From Halogranum gelatinilyticum (GTDB lineage: Archaea; Halobacteriota; Halobacteria; Halobacteriales; Haloferacaceae), in assembly GCF_900103715.1 (NCBI RefSeq), contig NZ_FNHL01000002.1:682001-746000 (forward strand): DNA of 64,000 nt, given 5' to 3'. Position numbers and translations under genes: made by a program. Under the pieces are notes generated by a model that searched no databases, was not told where the DNA came from, and saw only the letters and a list, made by a program, of their open reading frames with translations. Positions 41,252 to 50,199 of this stretch are shown here, piece by piece. Numbering within the stretch: position 1 is the first letter of the stretch; every line of letters begins with the position of its first letter.

Positions 41252-42301
41252 CTAACTCAGGTCCAACTCGTGTGGGTCGTGACGTGTGAGGAAGTCCTGT
41301 AGCTCCGCTTTCTGGTCTTCGAGTTGGGGTGGGAGGTCCGCGAAGACGAAGTCGAAGATGTCCTCGGGGTCGGGGTCCTCGACGGACTCGGCTTCCTTCA
41401 CCGCGGCGGCGAGTTCTTCGTCGGCCTCGTCGTACACTGACTCGACGAACTCGTCGTCGACGACGCCCTGTTCTCGCAGATATTCCTCGTAGCGTTCCAG
41501 CGGGTCGCGTTTGCGCCACTCCGGGATGTCGGGGTCCTCGTCGCGGTAGCGACTCGGGTCGTCGGCGGTCGTGTGCGCGCCCTGTCGGTAGGTCAGACTC
41601 TCGACGAGCACCGGGTCGCCCTCGCGGGCACTCCGCAGACAGTCCCGAACCATCTCGTAGACGGCGAGGGGGTCGTTGCCGTCGACCTGCACGCCCTCCA
41701 TCCCGTACGCCTCGGCCTTGACGGCGATAGACTCGCTCGCAGTCTGTCGTTCCTGGGGGAGCGAGATGGCCCAGCCGTTGTTCTCACAGAAGAAGACGAC
41801 CGGCGCGTCGAAGACGCCCGCGAAGTTCATCCCCTCGTGGAAGTCGCCCTCGCTGGTCGCGCCGTCGCCGAAACAGACGAGCATGGCTTCGTCGTTGCCG
41901 CTGTAGTTCCGGGCCATCCCCGCGCCCGCGGCGTGGGGAATCTGCGTCGCGATGGGGACGGCCTGGGGAAAGACGGGGACGTCGTGCTCGGAGTGGTACT
42001 CGGCGTGGCCACGGCGGAAGAGGAAGATGTCGGAGGGCGGGACGCCGCGGGCGAGCTGGAGGGCGTTCGAGCGGTAGGTCGGGAAGAGCCAGTCGTCCTC
42101 GGCCATCGCGTGGGCCGCGCCGACCTGCGAGGCCTCCTGCCCCTTGAACGGCGGATAGCCGCTCATCCACCCGCGACGCTGGAGGGCGAGCGACCGCTCG
42201 TCGAACCGACGGGTCCGGACCATGTCCCGGTAGAGCGCGCGAGCCTCCTCGGCCGAGACGTCGGTCTCGTCGAAGGCCCGTTCGCCGATACATCGATGCA
42301 T
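41252..42301 (-). CDS. 2-oxoacid dehydrogenase E1 alpha subunit
   Basis: This 349-residue thiamine-diphosphate enzyme subunit is of the pyruvate/branched-chain 2-oxoacid dehydrogenase group. The TPP/metal motif is GDGATSEGDFHEGMNFA near residue 150, preceded by TYRSNALQLARGVPP and GAGMARNYSGNDEAM, and followed by VDGNDPLAVYEMVRDCLR near 215. E1 beta, E2 (lipoyl) and E3 genes are absent next to it. It may work with components elsewhere or use acetoin- or 2-oxoacid-type substrates. It has a long C-terminal acidic helix (SVYDEADEELAAAVKEAESV). Divergent from a small membrane protein. Confidence 0.88.
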   Translation of the reverse strand: MHRCIGERAFDETDVSAEEARALYRDMVRTRRFDERSLALQRRGWMSGYPPFKGQEASQVGAAHAMAEDDWLFPTYRSNALQLARGVPPSDIFLFRRGHAEYHSEHDVPVFPQAVPIATQIPHAAGAGMARNYSGNDEAMLVCFGDGATSEGDFHEGMNFAGVFDAPVVFFCENNGWAISLPQERQTASESIAVKAEAYGMEGVQVDGNDPLAVYEMVRDCLRSAREGDPVLVESLTYRQGAHTTADDPSRYRDEDPDIPEWRKRDPLERYEEYLREQGVVDDEFVESVYDEADEELAAAVKEAESVEDPDPEDIFDFVFADLPPQLEDQKAELQDFLTRHDPHELDLS

Positions 42302-42445
42302 GACCGGTGGGTCACGGTCGACGGTGATAAATGGGGCGGAAGGCACGACGGCGGCGACGCCGCGAGGGCGAGGCTCATCGCCCGTGTTCCCGCCCTGGCG
42401 TGCTGGTTCCGACAGGGCAAAGTCGCCTGCCGCCCTACCTCGGCT

Positions 42446-42763
42446 ATGGTCTCGGTCATCAACCTCGTCCTCCTCGGGGTCGTCATCGTCCTGCACACGC
42501 TGATTGCCGCCGTGATGACCCGCTTCTTCCGCATCCGGCTGAAGACGCAGTGGGGGTCAGTGCTCTACGCGATTCTCCTCATCCCGGTCGTTCTCTTCGT
42601 CACGACGCTCGTCTTCTCGGGCGTCCTCGGTATCGGCGTCGACCTCGGCAGTCCGGCCGCCGCGCTCGGCATAATGATCGGAATGCCGCTCGCACTCGGA
42701 TTCACCATCGACGTGCTCTACATCCCCTCGCCCGATGAGTACGACCTGCCGGACACGCGGTGA
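42446..42763 (+). CDS. Small membrane protein, conserved type
   Basis: This 105-residue protein has three hydrophobic segments (VSVINLVLLGVVIVLHTLIA near 2-25, SVLYAILLIPVVLFVTTLVF near 39-60, and AALGIMIGMPLALGFTID near 73-92), with a short polar tail (SPDEYDLPDTR). I cannot name a family. The start at 42446 begins directly at the first helix. It converges with the GH13 gene, 17 bp between stops. Confidence 0.72.
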   Translation: MVSVINLVLLGVVIVLHTLIAAVMTRFFRIRLKTQWGSVLYAILLIPVVLFVTTLVFSGVLGIGVDLGSPAAALGIMIGMPLALGFTIDVLYIPSPDEYDLPDTR

Positions 42764-42780: not shown

Positions 42781-44487
42781 TCAGAGCCGATAGACGACCG
42801 CTTCGTATGGCCGGAACTCCTGTCCAGACGGCACTGCCGGGGCGTCGTCGTAGTTGCTCCGGAGCACCGCTGTGGGACTCTCTTCGACGAGGTCGGCGTC
42901 GACGGCCACGGACTCGCCGGACCAGTTGAGGACGACGAGAACCGTCTCGTCGTCGAGTGTCCGGGTGTACGCGTAGAGCTGTTCGTGGTCGGGGAGGAGG
43001 AGTTCGTACTCTCCGTAGACGAGGACCTCCTCGTCGTGTCGGAGGTCGATGAGCCGTCGGTAGTAGTTCCAGACCGAATCCTCGTCGGCTCGGGCCGCCT
43101 CGACGTTGATCTCCGGATAGTTCTCGTTGAGCGCGAGCCACGGCTCGCCGGTGGTGAAGCCCGCGTTCGCCGCGTCCGACCACTGCATCGGCGTCCGCGC
43201 GTGGTCGCGGCTCACGTAGTTCACGAACGCACGCAGGTCTTCGTAGGAGTCGGCCCGTCCGGCGTCGATGAGGTCTTCGATGGCACCCACCGTCATCGGG
43301 TCGTCGAGGTCCTCCAGTCGCTCGAAGTCGTCGTTCGTCATCCCGATCTCCTCGCCCTGGTAGACGAACGGCGTGCCGCGGACGGTCATGAGGAACGTCG
43401 CGAGCAGTTTCGCGCTCTCGACTCGGTACTCTTCGTCGTCGCCGAACCGCGAGACGATGCGTGGCTGGTCGTGGTTGCCCAGATACTGCGCGTTCCAAGC
43501 ATCCTCTCCAAGTTCCGTCTGCCAGCGGGTCATGATCTCCTTGAACTCGGGGAGACTCCACTCGCCCCAGCCGTCGGGGTCGAACCGCCCCCGGGGGCTG
43601 ATGTCGACGTCCATATGCTCGAAGTGGAAGATCATGTCCAGCCCGTCGCCGTCCTCGCCGAGATAGTCGCCGGCCATGTCGACCGTCGTGTCCGACATCT
43701 CGGCGACGGTCAGCACGTCGTAGTTCGCGAAGGTTCGGTCGTACAGCTCGCGGAGATAGTCGTGGATACGAGGGCCGTGGCTGAAGACTTCGACACCCTT
43801 CGGCTCTCGGTCGGCAGTCCCGTCCGGAAGTCCCTCGGGCTTCGAGATGTAGTTGATGGCGTCGATGCGGAAGCCGTCGATGCCCTTCTCCAACCACCAC
43901 TCGACGAGCGACGCGACCTCGTCGCGGACGTCCGGATTTCGCCAGTTCAGGTCGGGCTGTTTCTCGTCGAAGAGGTGGAGATACCACTGTTCGCGCAGTT
44001 CGTCGTAGGTCCACGCCGAGCCACCCATGAACGACCCCCAGTTGTTCGGGGGGACCGGCTCGCCGTCCTCGTCGACGTCGCCGTCGCGCCAGTAGTAGTA
44101 GTCCTCGTAGCCGTCCTCGCGTCGCCGCGACCGCTGGAACCACTCGTGCTCGTCGGAGGTGTGGTTGACGACGAGGTCCATGAGCAGTCGGATGTCGTGG
44201 GCGTGCAGTTCCGCGAGGAGTGCCTCCCAGTCGGCCATCGTCCCGAACTCCGGCATGATGGAGCGGTAGTCGCCGATGTCGTAGCCGTTGTCGGCGTTCG
44301 GCGAATCGTAGACCGGACACAGCCAGATGACGTCGACGCCGAGGTCCGCGAGATACTCGACTCGCTCGGTGATGCCCTGCAAGTCGCCGACTCCGTCGCC
44401 GTCGCTATCGTTGAAGCTGCGCGGATAGATCTGGTAGACGACCGCCTCCTTCCACCACTGATGGTCCGGACTCCCGTCAGTATTCAT
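42781..44487 (-). CDS. GH13 alpha-glucosidase / oligo-1,6-glucosidase
   Basis: This 568-residue cytoplasmic glycoside hydrolase family 13 enzyme cleaves alpha-glucosidic bonds from short saccharides. Region I is LLMDLVVNHTSDEH (near residue 100), region II GFRIDAINYIS (nucleophile Asp near 205), region III LTVAEMSD (acid Glu near 262), and region IV LGNHDQPRI (Asp near 342). The start VVYQIYPRSFNDSDGDGVGD is typical of the oligo-1,6-glucosidase/trehalose-related branch, and the C-terminal beta domain (EVLVYGEYELLLPDHEQLYA) fits. The start ATG at 44487 (MNTDGSPDHQWW) has no signal peptide. Trehalulose or sucrose use cannot be excluded. Confidence 0.92.
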   Translation of the reverse strand: MNTDGSPDHQWWKEAVVYQIYPRSFNDSDGDGVGDLQGITERVEYLADLGVDVIWLCPVYDSPNADNGYDIGDYRSIMPEFGTMADWEALLAELHAHDIRLLMDLVVNHTSDEHEWFQRSRRREDGYEDYYYWRDGDVDEDGEPVPPNNWGSFMGGSAWTYDELREQWYLHLFDEKQPDLNWRNPDVRDEVASLVEWWLEKGIDGFRIDAINYISKPEGLPDGTADREPKGVEVFSHGPRIHDYLRELYDRTFANYDVLTVAEMSDTTVDMAGDYLGEDGDGLDMIFHFEHMDVDISPRGRFDPDGWGEWSLPEFKEIMTRWQTELGEDAWNAQYLGNHDQPRIVSRFGDDEEYRVESAKLLATFLMTVRGTPFVYQGEEIGMTNDDFERLEDLDDPMTVGAIEDLIDAGRADSYEDLRAFVNYVSRDHARTPMQWSDAANAGFTTGEPWLALNENYPEINVEAARADEDSVWNYYRRLIDLRHDEEVLVYGEYELLLPDHEQLYAYTRTLDDETVLVVLNWSGESVAVDADLVEESPTAVLRSNYDDAPAVPSGQEFRPYEAVVYRL

Positions 44488-44555
44488 GACAGTACCACTC
44501 TGCGGCGACGTGAGAAGCGTTTCCCCTGAATCGGGGGGTTCGTCTCCCAGCCGAC

Positions 44556-45773
44556 TCAGGACGCCTCGGACTCGATGGCGTCGCAGGCGTCGATGACGAC
44601 TTCCGGCGCGTCGAGCAGATGCGTCTCCATGTAGCCGCCCTCGCCGCGACCCGCGCCCTTCCGCTTGCGCTCGATGATTTCGAGGAACTCCAGTTCGTGC
44701 AGGAGGTCGCGCACGCGACGCCACGAGAGCGGGTCCGAACTGTACTGCTCGGTACAGATCTGTCGGTAGAGCTGGTTGACGTCGCTGGACTTGACCGCCT
44801 TGTCGTCGGCCATCCGCTGGTCGAGGAGGGCGACAGACTTCAGGACGTACCGTGAGTGTGGCGGCTGTTCGGTCAGGACTTCGATGAGATGGTCGCGTTC
44901 GGTCTGGACCTGTGCGGCGTCGACGTGGCGTTCGTAGACCGTCTCGGCCTGCTCCTCTTGGGCCATCTCGCCAGCAGTACGAAGAATGTCGATGGCCTTC
45001 CGGGCGTCACCGTGTTCGCGCGCGGCGAGCGCGGCCGCACGGGGGATGACACCCGCTTCGAGGACGCCGTCTTTGAACGCGCCGTCGCGAGCTTCCAGAA
45101 TCTTCTCGATCTGGTTGGCGTCGTAGGGCGGGAAGACGAAGTCGCGCTGGCAGAGACTGGAGCGGGCGCGCTCGTTGAGGCGGTCTTTGAACCGCGGCTT
45201 GTTGCTGATGCCGATGATGCCGAGTTTGCAGGACTGAATCTTCTCGGCCTCAGCAGCCCGAGAAAGGTTCATCAGCGCGGAGTTGGGGTCGTCCATCTTG
45301 TCGAGTTCGTCGAGGACGACGACGACGACGTCGTAGAGTTCGTCCATCACGCGCCAGGCGCGCTTGTAGCACTCAGAGGTGGAGACGCCGCTGGCAGGGA
45401 ACGTCTCGCCCGTCACCTCCTGGTCGTTGATGGTCGAGCCGAGCGCGCGGATGACCTGCGACTCCGTGGAGTCCTGGAAACAGTCGACGTAGGCGACGCC
45501 GACAGAGACGTCGTTCTCCGAGGCGGCGGAGACGAGTTGGCGGGCCATGAACTTCGAACAGAGCGACTTCCCCGTCCCAGTCTTGCCGTAGATGAGGACG
45601 TTGTTGGGTTTCTGCCCCTCGACGGCCGGCTGGAGCCCCGTTGCGAGCGCGTTCAGCTGACTCTCGCGGCCGATGATGAGGCGTTCGTTGTCGGGGACGT
45701 GGTCGATCTGCAGGAGGTCCTTGTTGCGGAAGACCGTGGTGACCCCCTCGAAGTAGTTGGAGATGTCGCCCAT
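44556..45773 (-). CDS. orc1: Orc1/Cdc6 replication initiator
   Basis: This 405-residue initiator has an AAA+ domain with Walker A LIYGKTGTGKSLCSKF near residue 62 and Walker B VVVVLDELDKMDD near 152, sensor-1 LGIIGISNKPRFKDRL, and a C-terminal winged helix (near 320-400, SDVNQLYRQICTEQYSSDPL onwards) that reads origin boxes. It binds ORB repeats and loads MCM. I chose ATG 45773 (MGDISNYFEG); the longer upstream frame reads through an origin repeat. It sits at the left edge of the 45774-46953 origin, and the first repeat lies 38 bp from its start, so autoregulation is likely. Confidence 0.96.
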   Translation of the reverse strand: MGDISNYFEGVTTVFRNKDLLQIDHVPDNERLIIGRESQLNALATGLQPAVEGQKPNNVLIYGKTGTGKSLCSKFMARQLVSAASENDVSVGVAYVDCFQDSTESQVIRALGSTINDQEVTGETFPASGVSTSECYKRAWRVMDELYDVVVVVLDELDKMDDPNSALMNLSRAAEAEKIQSCKLGIIGISNKPRFKDRLNERARSSLCQRDFVFPPYDANQIEKILEARDGAFKDGVLEAGVIPRAAALAAREHGDARKAIDILRTAGEMAQEEQAETVYERHVDAAQVQTERDHLIEVLTEQPPHSRYVLKSVALLDQRMADDKAVKSSDVNQLYRQICTEQYSSDPLSWRRVRDLLHELEFLEIIERKRKGAGRGEGGYMETHLLDAPEVVIDACDAIESEAS

Positions 45774-45810
45774 CGTCTCTGTCTGACCGAGGCGACTGTC
45801 TTGAGTGTTT

Positions 45811-45832
45811 GGATGCACGCTTCCGCTGTAAG
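45811..45832 (-). repeat. ORB-like repeat 1
   Basis: Core on the minus strand is TTACAGCGGAAGCGTGCA. One substitution (G for A) changes the last base of the core. It is the copy nearest the orc1 start. Confidence 0.75.
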
Positions 45833-45904
45833 CACACGGTTCTCTCGGCCAGTATTCGCCGACTACGGGCGTTAGGGCGGAAGCCCGCGCACTCGGCCGA
45901 CCGA

Positions 45905-45919
45905 TGTTTCCGCTGTAAC
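45905..45919 (-). repeat. ORB-like repeat 2
   Basis: Minus-strand core GTTACAGCGGAAA at 45907-45919; the tail beyond it diverges (CATCGG), making this the weakest left copy. Confidence 0.75.
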
Positions 45920-45969
45920 CGTCTCCGCGTGGTTCAACGACGGAAGGCTGCTCACAACGAGCCTCGACT

Positions 45970-45999
45970 GAGAGGGCGTGCGCGGGTTTCCGCTGTAAC
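45970..45999 (-). repeat. ORB-like repeat 3
   Basis: Minus-strand GTTACAGCGGAAACCCGCGC, then a CCTCTC tail. The core spans 45987-45998. Confidence 0.85.
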
Positions 46000-46036
46000 A
46001 ACAGAGTGGGAGTCTGACGCTCGTCGGCGACGAGAG

Positions 46037-46069
46037 ACGGAGTGTGGACGTGCGGATTTCCGCTGTAAC
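46037..46069 (-). repeat. ORB-like repeat 4
   Basis: Minus-strand GTTACAGCGGAAATCCGCAC followed by CACACTCC. The core spans 46057-46068. Confidence 0.88.
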
Positions 46070-46104
46070 GTCCGACCACGGCCGGTCGGTCTTTCGGACG
46101 ATAT

Positions 46105-46135
46105 GGAGTGTGGATGCGCGGGTTTCCGCTGTAAC
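46105..46135 (-). repeat. ORB-like repeat 5
   Basis: Minus-strand GTTACAGCGGAAACCCGCGC followed by CACACTCC. The core spans 46123-46134. This is the innermost left copy. Confidence 0.88.
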
Positions 46136-46310
46136 GAGTGAGTGACTGTGGGGAGTCGTTCGAGAGTCGAACGCCGTCGGTCGCGAGTGGTGGGAACAGT
46201 CGCCGGCAAGAAGGTCACTTTCGGTTCTCTCCACGACTGCTACTCGGTAAACCCGATCTTAGACGGCTGGACCGACCTGTCTCGGCGGTATCAGACGAAC
46301 CTCACGTTCC

Positions 46311-46400
46311 GGTTTCATCTATCTCTGTCTAGTCTAGTCTCAACTCTAGTCATAATGTAGAATATGAATCTTACGGTTGTAGTGGCACAGCAATCGTAGA
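46311..46400. other. AT-rich core, candidate DNA-unwinding element
   Basis: AT content rises clearly above the surrounding DNA, with repeats of CTAGTCTAGTC and AACTCTAGTCATAATG. It sits between the two opposed repeat groups, as in other archaeal origins. Confidence 0.6.
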
Positions 46401-46427
46401 ACAGTCGTTGCAGGTCCCACAGACACC

Positions 46428-46449
46428 GTTTTACAACGGAAACGTGCAC
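46428..46449 (+). repeat. ORB-like repeat 6
   Basis: GTTTTACAACGGAAACGTGC has one change (A for G) in the core, TTACAACGGAAA. It is the innermost right copy. Confidence 0.75.
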
Positions 46450-46521
46450 CTCCGTCTTATGTTTATATACTCTTTCCAGAACCACCGAGAAGTACCCAGC
46501 ACCCTCGCCGTACCTTCACCG

Positions 46522-46550
46522 TTTACAGCGGAAACACGCACTTACACTCT
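46522..46550 (+). repeat. ORB-like repeat 7
   Basis: TTTACAGCGGAAACACGCAC followed by TTACACTCT. Core 46523-46534. Confidence 0.87.
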
Positions 46551-46717
46551 CCGAGTGGACTGTCCACGCGGTCACCGAGCGTTGGCCCGGAGAATCGACA
46601 CCGACGTCTGTTCGTGACGGTTCTCCGAGTGTCGGTAGCCAGTGAGACGCACTCCATGACACGTCCGTGGTCGTCGCTGAAGACGCCCACCGAACCGATC
46701 ACCCCGTCCAGTCAGTT

Positions 46718-46750
46718 GGTTTACAGCGGAAACCCGCACTCGCGCACTCT
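46718..46750 (+). repeat. ORB-like repeat 8
   Basis: TTTACAGCGGAAACCCGCAC followed by a CACTCT tail at 46745-46750. Core 46721-46732. Spacing to repeat 7 is about 200 bp. Confidence 0.88.
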
Positions 46751-46790
46751 CGGTCTCCGTTCTCGAATCGACGACCGCCACAGATTCGAG

Positions 46791-46820
46791 CGTTACAGCG
46801 GAAACCCGCACTGACACTCT
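46791..46820 (+). repeat. ORB-like repeat 9
   Basis: GTTACAGCGGAAACCCGCAC followed by ACACTCT. Core 46793-46804. It is the outermost right copy. Confidence 0.88.
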
Positions 46821-46953
46821 CCGTCGGGTCCACACGCTTCCGAGAATGGGTATTCGACGGCGACGTCGACAGCATCAACAGCCTGACAGCGGCGACGACG
46901 ACGCCCAGACCGACACTGAGACCGACGACGATGACAACGACACCGACGACGAC

Positions 46954-47538
46954 TTAGTCGAGCAGGTCGTCGATGGCGGCTTCGACTGCATCGAGCACTT
47001 CTTCGGGCGACTGGGTGGCGTCGACGCGGACGAACCGGTCCGGTTCGGCGTCGATGAGTCGTTCGTAGTTCGCACGGACCTGCGCGAGATAGCCCGCCTG
47101 TTCGAACTTGTTGGTCGCGCCGCTCCGCTCCGCTCCAGTCTCGGGGTCGACGTCGAGATAGATGGTCGCGTCGGGCGTCCGCGAGAAAGCCGCGTGAATC
47201 CCTTTGATGTACTCCAGCGGTCGCTTCAGTTCCGAGTCCGCCAGACTCGCTGCCTGGTAGGCGAACCGTGAGTCGGAGTAGCGGTCGGAGATGACGACCT
47301 CGCCGTCGTCGAGTGCGGGACGGACGACACGCGAGAGATGGTCGGCGTGGTCGGCAGTGAAGAGAAAGAGCGTCGCCAGCGGGTCGGCGTCGTCGTCACC
47401 GATGGCGCGGTTGACCGCGTCGCCGTACCACGACTCGGTCGGCTCGCGGGTGAAGACGACGTCCGGATAGGTGTCGTGCAGCGCCTCCCAGACGGTCGAC
47501 TTGCCGCTGCCGTCGAGTCCTTCGAGCGTGATGAGCAT
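46954..47538 (-). CDS. tmk: Thymidylate kinase
   Basis: This 194-residue enzyme phosphorylates dTMP to dTDP. The P-loop is [19 protein letters not shown] near residue 10, the substrate DR(Y/H) motif is [17 protein letters not shown] near 87, and the lid follows ([19 protein letters not shown] near 140). The length is normal for the family. It is transcribed towards the origin, so its 3' end borders oriC. Linking dTTP supply to the origin is natural, but could be accidental. Confidence 0.95.
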
Positions 47539-49017: not shown

Positions 49018-50199
49018 ATGAAGCTGGCCATGATCGGATTCGGGCAAGCCGGTGGTAAAATAGTCGACAAGTTCGTGGAGTACGACAAGCGACACAACTC
49101 GGGCATCGTGAAGGCGGCCGTCGCCGTCAACACGGCGAAGGCCGACCTGATGGGACTCAAGCACATCCCTAAGGAGAAGCGCGTCCTCATCGGGCAGTCG
49201 CGTGTCAAGGGCCACGGTGTCGGTGCCGACAACGAACTCGGCGCGGAGATCGCCGAAGAGGACGTCGACGAGGTCCAGAGTGCCATCGACTCGGTCCCCG
49301 TCCACGAGGTCGACGCTTTCCTGGTCGTCTCCGGACTCGGCGGCGGGACCGGGAGCGGTGGCGCGCCCGTTCTCGCGAAGCATCTGAAGCGCATCTACAC
49401 CGAACCCGTCTACGGACTCGGCGTGCTTCCGGGCAGCGACGAGGGTGGCATCTACACGCTCAACGCCGCACGCTCCTTCCAGACGTTCGTCCGCGAGGTC
49501 GACAACCTGCTCGTCTTCGACAACGACGCCTGGCGGAAGACCGGCGAATCGGTCCAGGGCGGCTACGACGAGATCAACGAGGAGATCGTCAAGCGCTTCG
49601 GCATCCTGTTCGGTGCCGGTGAGGTCACCGGCGGCGAGGTCGCAGAGAGCGTCGTCGACTCCAGTGAGATTATCAACACCCTCGCGGGCGGCGGCGTCTC
49701 CACCGTCGGCTACGCCCGCGAAGAGGTCGAAGAGAAACAGAACTCCGGCGGCCTGCTCTCGCGGCTGACCGGCGGTAACGACGAGGACGACGGCCTCGAC
49801 ACCGCGCGCACGACGAACCGTATCACGAGCCTCGTGCGCAAGGCCGCGCTCGGCCGCCTCACGCTCCCGTGTGAGATCGAAGGTGCCGAACGTGCCCTGC
49901 TCGTCTTGGCCGGGCCGCCCGCCTACCTCAACCGGAAAGGTATCGAGCGCGGGCGGAAGTGGCTCGAGGAGCAGACCGGCAGCATGGAGGTCCGCGGTGG
50001 CGACTACCCGGTCACGGGTAGCGGCTTCGTCGCCAGCGTCATCCTGCTCTCGGGCGTGACGAACGTCCCGCGCATCAAGGAGCTCCAGCAGGTCGCCATC
50101 GAGGCCCAGGAGAACATCGACGAGATCAACCAGGAGAGCGAATCCAACCTCGAAAGCCTCGTAAACGACGATGAGGACGAGCTTGAATCGCTCTTCTAA
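49018..50199 (+). CDS. cetZ1: CetZ1, tubulin/FtsZ-superfamily cytoskeletal protein
   Basis: This 393-residue GTPase of the archaeal CetZ group is probably involved in cell-shape control; in Haloferax, CetZ1 is required for rod formation and motility. The N-terminus MKLAMIGFGQAGGKIVDKFV and the GTP-binding loop VVSGLGGGTGSGGAPVLAKH near residue 105 are hallmark. The YGLGVLPGSDEGGIYTLNAA segment and FGAGEVTGGEVAESVVDSS near 198 are in the GTPase half. The C-terminal domain ends in a short acidic tail (NDDEDELESLF). Its last 29 bp overlap the next gene. A TATA box and SD-like leader lie upstream. Confidence 0.94.
   Translation: MKLAMIGFGQAGGKIVDKFVEYDKRHNSGIVKAAVAVNTAKADLMGLKHIPKEKRVLIGQSRVKGHGVGADNELGAEIAEEDVDEVQSAIDSVPVHEVDAFLVVSGLGGGTGSGGAPVLAKHLKRIYTEPVYGLGVLPGSDEGGIYTLNAARSFQTFVREVDNLLVFDNDAWRKTGESVQGGYDEINEEIVKRFGILFGAGEVTGGEVAESVVDSSEIINTLAGGGVSTVGYAREEVEEKQNSGGLLSRLTGGNDEDDGLDTARTTNRITSLVRKAALGRLTLPCEIEGAERALLVLAGPPAYLNRKGIERGRKWLEEQTGSMEVRGGDYPVTGSGFVASVILLSGVTNVPRIKELQQVAIEAQENIDEINQESESNLESLVNDDEDELESLF

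Follow-up and report, generated by a model that had tools for sequence, protein, structure and literature searches.

In Halogranum gelatinilyticum the orc1/cdc6 initiator gene and tmk are separated by an intergenic interval of 1180 bp (45774-46953 of the window, i.e. of the whole 64-kb stretch of DNA that was analyzed). Within this interval we found nine boxes that match TTACAGCGGAAA with at most one mismatch (Table 1). Seven of the nine cores are exact, and boxes 1 and 6 carry one change each, as the initial annotation had stated. The encoded Orc1 protein is intact and longer than 300 aa, and comprises an AAA+ domain with a GKTGTGKS Walker A motif, a Cdc6 lid and a winged helix. Its nearest solved structures are 2V1U and 2QBY; an AlphaFold model was too poor to be used (mean pLDDT 53). 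A search for RNA families at the locus found none. Just before tmk lies a GAC-rich stretch whose plus frame gives an acidic D/T-rich peptide. It is probably not a gene, and the aligned portion of the H. amylolyticum sequence lacks it.

Table 1. Features in and around the orc1-tmk interval (positions in the window).
Feature	Position	Strand	Core site	Remarks
E1 dehydrogenase component	41252..42496	-		left-hand border of the putatively acquired segment
alpha-amylase-family gene	42781-44724	-
orc1/cdc6 initiator gene	44556..45773	-		405 aa; TIGR02928, 405.8 bits; Pfam Cdc6_lid and Cdc6_C
TATA-like stretch, putative orc1 promoter element	45803..45815	-		from three-species alignment; inside box 1 tail
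Box 1	45804..45831	-	45820	core TTACAGCGGAAG, change kept in three species; promoter-proximal
Tenth, degenerate box	45872..45883	+	45872	TTAGGGCGGAAG; faces box 2
Box 2	45891..45918	-	45907	exact core; tail not conserved
Box 3	45971..45998	-	45987	tail CCCGCGCACGCCCTCTC
Box 4	46041..46068	-	46057	tail TCCGCACGTCCACACTC
Box 5	46107..46134	-	46123	tail CCCGCGCATCCACACTC
AT-rich core, putative unwinding element	46313..46412			39% GC
Box 6	46431..46458	+	46431	core TTACAACGGAAA, degenerate tail; at edge of AT-rich core
Second AT-rich stretch	about 46460-46475			TGTTTATATACTC
Box 7	46523..46550	+	46523	tail CACGCACTTACACTCTC
Box 8	46721..46748	+	46721	tail CCCGCACTCGCGCACTC
Box 9	46793..46820	+	46793	tail CCCGCACTGACACTCTC
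GAC-rich stretch	46860-46953
tmk (dTMP kinase)	46954..47538	-		TIGR00041; right-hand border of the putatively acquired segment
CetZ-like tubulin-family gene	49018-50199	+

The number of boxes in the interval is far above random expectation. In the window, 11 matches with up to two mismatches to TTACAGCGGAAA were present compared to 1.4 expected from dinucleotide shuffles, and the nine matches in the interval with at most one mismatch stand against none in 300 Markov-randomized copies. Genome-wide (3.77 Mb) there are eight exact copies of TTACAGCGGAAA, seven of them inside the orc1-tmk interval. The eighth (C2:678459) is an isolated single copy, which is about the chance expectation for a 12-mer in this genome, and was therefore rejected. 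A search of the 3.77-Mb genome for a second array with the TTACAGCGGAAA core found none. All nine repeats proposed initially were located, five on the minus and four on the plus strand, but a tenth, degenerate and conserved box had been overlooked. Its orientation is opposite to that of the neighboring boxes. The copy number, which had been considered unusual for a haloarchaeal origin, is ordinary, since nine is the median of the related orc loci surveyed (64 loci, 5-14 boxes). The two groups of boxes are opposed around the AT-rich core and point outward from it. This core, also expected from the initial annotation, is the lowest-GC 100 bp of the interval, with 39% GC compared to about 66% for the contigs.

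In an alignment of the three Halogranum species, nine boxes including the tenth, degenerate one occupy the same columns on the same strand, while the aligned partners of boxes 3 and 9 of H. gelatinilyticum are shifted or missing. The spacing of 35 bp between the tenth box and box 2 is the same in all three species. Identity is 93% for the box cores, 56% for the 17-base tails and 27% for the other aligned columns of the intergenic DNA. Nine boxes kept in place in three species show lasting selection on the array. The change in the core of box 6 does not recur at the corresponding box in H. amylolyticum and H. rubrum, and the GGAAG variant of box 1 is kept in all three.

The distance from box 1 to the orc1 ATG is 46 bp, and the box runs into the TATA-like stretch (ATCCAAAC in H. 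gelatinilyticum and ATATAAAC in H. amylolyticum and H. rubrum), which itself reads ATCCAAACACTC in the former and ATATAAACACTC in the latter two. Orc1 bound to box 1 would cover the orc1 promoter and damp its own transcription. Autoregulation via this box, suggested before from its closeness to the orc1 start, is plausible given its position and its conservation in three species. One may go further and regard the whole array as a regulatory cluster which serves self-titration of Orc1 and control of its own gene without any initiation, similar to H. hispanica oriC2D. Some ORB clusters are known to act by titration (PMC3936714), and a conserved variant core abutting the orc1 promoter would fit such a role. 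However, the arrangement of opposed boxes with an AT-rich core between them is that of true origins, and titration would have no target origin because the genome contains no second array with the TTACAGCGGAAA core. A regulatory cluster without initiation is therefore unlikely.

The Orc1 protein is 97% identical in H. amylolyticum and H. rubrum of the same genus, with the next best relative at about 56%. A search for closer relatives in genomes of the family (148) and of the order (392), in the species-genome collection, and in plasmids and viral contigs found none. Accordingly, the lineage consists of the three Halogranum sequences only, on a long branch with 100/100 support. A plasmid source of Orc1 was rejected since no plasmid match exceeded 60% identity, and a viral source since viral contigs held no relative. 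At otherwise near-invariant positions Orc1 carries changes found only in Halogranum, including T105S, Y135C and L139A, which lie within or close to the presumed ISM. The concentration of such changes in the ISM was not significant (Fisher p = 0.14), though their placement is suggestive.

Many sister genera have the same SDR gene, and often cetZ, after tmk but no orc1 at this place, and in several of them (L121, L123, L126, L128, L129) no more than about 0.5 kb separates the E1 gene from tmk. The three Halogranum species all carry orc1 and the box array between the E1 gene and tmk, together with variable cargo. Only H. gelatinilyticum has the alpha-amylase-family gene there, next to orc1; the corresponding cargo of the other two species is a methyltransferase and an AMP-binding enzyme. 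The CetZ-like gene lies two genes from the putative origin, and the order tmk-SDR-cetZ is kept in many sister genera. As tmk and the E1 gene are close together and free of orc1 in sister genera, the simplest reading is that the ancestor of Halogranum probably gained the module by insertion. Alternatively, the module could be what remains of a captured plasmid origin in decay, with its G-strings mutated away. Such a relic would also appear as a lineage-specific insertion, and plasmids of haloarchaea often encode related Orc1 proteins. Nevertheless, the 97% identity of Orc1 between species, the 93% identity of the cores compared to 27% of their surroundings and the 56% identity of the replacement tail itself are the opposite of decay, which makes a relic highly improbable.

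The module was also considered as the universal, ancestral oriC1 and rejected as such. The true oriC1 of H. gelatinilyticum is intact elsewhere, on contig C1 at about 104 kb, with two inverted TCCACCCGAAACGAGGGGGTGGGGGG boxes and ordinary G-strings, and its Orc1 passes the cut-off of the NF001625 equivalog (651.7 bits; cut-off 501 bits), whereas the Orc1 of the window scores 304 bits and fails. Four more orc-adjacent arrays were observed in the genome, all with G-rich tails, on contigs C3 (L021, core TTCACCGGAAAC), C5 (L020, TTTACTGGAAAT), C7 (L023, TTACATTCGCGA) and C10 (L022/L026, AACGTCGGAAAC); on C10 two orc genes flank a single array. Each orc with identifiable repeats in this genome thus has its own box type, and the tails are G-rich at all loci other than the one studied here.

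The local GC skew is positive to the left of the AT-rich core and negative to the right, opposite to the order at oriC1 (C-left, G-right). In two species the cumulative skew turns from positive to negative at the locus, as it does at oriC1. This signal is weak: depending on the window size of the skew calculation, a fraction of 0.02-0.07 of the positions in H. gelatinilyticum and of 0.03-0.24 in H. rubrum was equally or more extreme, compared to 0.000-0.009 at oriC1. In Haloferax mediterranei, recently gained orc-adjacent origins of such anatomy were reported to be dormant (PMC4595724). Likewise, the Halogranum module could be dormant or serve as a backup origin, remaining intact and Orc1-bound but silent while oriC1 and the other origins work, and both the intact canonical oriC1 and the weaker skew are consistent with dormancy. 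On the other hand, nine boxes held in place in three species point to lasting selection on the array, and the skew still turns as at oriC1 in two of them. A backup origin is the main rival, which we consider somewhat less likely than not. It overlaps with the explanation favored below, which makes no claim of firing in ordinary growth.

The clearest peculiarity of the boxes is their tail. Over 26 boxes from the three species the motif reads TTACAGCGGAAAC-N-C-G-C-R-C-(3-4 nt)-C-A-C-W-C-T-C. It had been claimed that most boxes carry CCCGCAC followed by ACACTC. In exact form these elements follow only two and five of the nine boxes, respectively, and what is common to most boxes is the looser 3' tail C-N-C-G-C-R-C-(3-4 nt)-CACTC. 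To place this tail we surveyed 64 related orc loci by an automatic box search, which yielded 538 boxes; some of these loci represent the same place in two collections. Two loci of the same genome (L023, L113) were excluded from the survey since a wrong motif was picked; their boxes were read separately and are G-rich. A G-run, defined as GGG or GGTG within the 18-base tail of a box, was present in 463 of the 538 boxes but in none of the nine boxes of H. gelatinilyticum, and in two of ten boxes in each of the two other Halogranum species. The suggestion of an unusual extended tail was thus borne out. The G fraction of the tail is 0.19 here and 0.21 in the other two species compared to a mean of 0.45 (0.34-0.57) in the 64 relatives, and the C fraction is 0.48 here and 0.42-0.48 across Halogranum compared to 0.18 (0.08-0.29), with no overlap of the ranges for either base. 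The G-rich strand of the tail is therefore swapped in the Halogranum boxes, which are C-rich on the strand of the core. On the opposite flank of the core (positions -7 to 0) there is no conservation, so the G-string has not simply been relocated. A more widespread occurrence of this box type was rejected, as outside Halogranum only two of the 392 genomes of the order contained an exact TTACAGCGGAAACNCGCNC, each as a single copy without another box in its vicinity. Both matches are likely due to chance, since the reverse strand reads as a possible gene end (V-F-P-L-stop).

Taken together, the anatomy with an intact Orc1, opposed boxes and an AT-rich core matches that of an orc1-adjacent haloarchaeal origin, as initially proposed. 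We consider it likely, with a probability of roughly 80% judged from sequence comparison, that the locus is an Orc1/Cdc6-dependent origin which follows the common haloarchaeal plan and whose origin recognition box is specific to the lineage. It has been described that the AAA+ domain of the initiator binds the G-string and that the winged helix binds the box more generally (PMC7776575). At such a Halogranum origin, Orc1 would bind the boxes such that the winged helix reads the TTACAGCGGAAAC core while the AAA+/ISM side runs along the tail. Bound Orc1 may then mark the AT-rich core and recruit MCM to it.

In Haloarcula hispanica oriC1, mutation of either G-string abolished function (PMC3936714), and hence boxes without a G-string might bind poorly. 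Conversely, the Halogranum Orc1 and its boxes may be a working pair that does without it, in which the AAA+/ISM part would read the strand-swapped C-rich tail together with the distal CACTC. In that case the G-string would be no general haloarchaeal requirement; to this we give nearly, but not quite, even odds. G-strings were described at the ORB ends of all H. volcanii origins and guided the choice of candidate ORBs in 15 haloarchaeal genomes (PMC3528665) as well as in Haloferax mediterranei (PMC4595724). Since the G-string, regarded as a signature of haloarchaeal origins, served as an inclusion criterion, origins of the Halogranum type would have been missed by such filtered surveys. In the openly accessible literature we found no report of a Halogranum origin or of a haloarchaeal ORB family without a G-string. 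What is new is the putative recognition-box variant without a G-string, while orc1-adjacent origin modules as an overall kind are known. A core that is kept while the G-string is replaced by a C-rich tail amounts to a natural experiment on which part of Orc1 reads which part of the box, and an extra, apparently acquired putative origin in three Halogranum species, with boxes lacking the G-run, opens a direct test of the purpose of that run.

The closest known counterparts are the origins of the sister initiators (Orc1 identity 52-56%; L043, L045, L046, L053, L080). They share the Orc1 lineage, the intergenic site directly upstream of orc1 and opposed boxes in similar number, and their box TTACAGCGGCAACGWGGGGTGTG differs in the core by one base. 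However, their tails are G-rich on the core strand, whereas the Halogranum tail is C-rich with swapped strands and contains an added CACTC element. The oriC1 (cdc6A) origin is similar in that inverted boxes next to orc point away from an AT-rich core, but has another Orc1, two boxes and long G-strings, and is a separate locus in H. gelatinilyticum. Haloarcula hispanica oriC2-cdc6E with the ORB-rich oriC2D likewise represents a later-gained chromosomal origin with many ORBs; in contrast to oriC2D, no ORB cluster was found downstream of the Halogranum orc1, and the Halogranum boxes are without a G-string.
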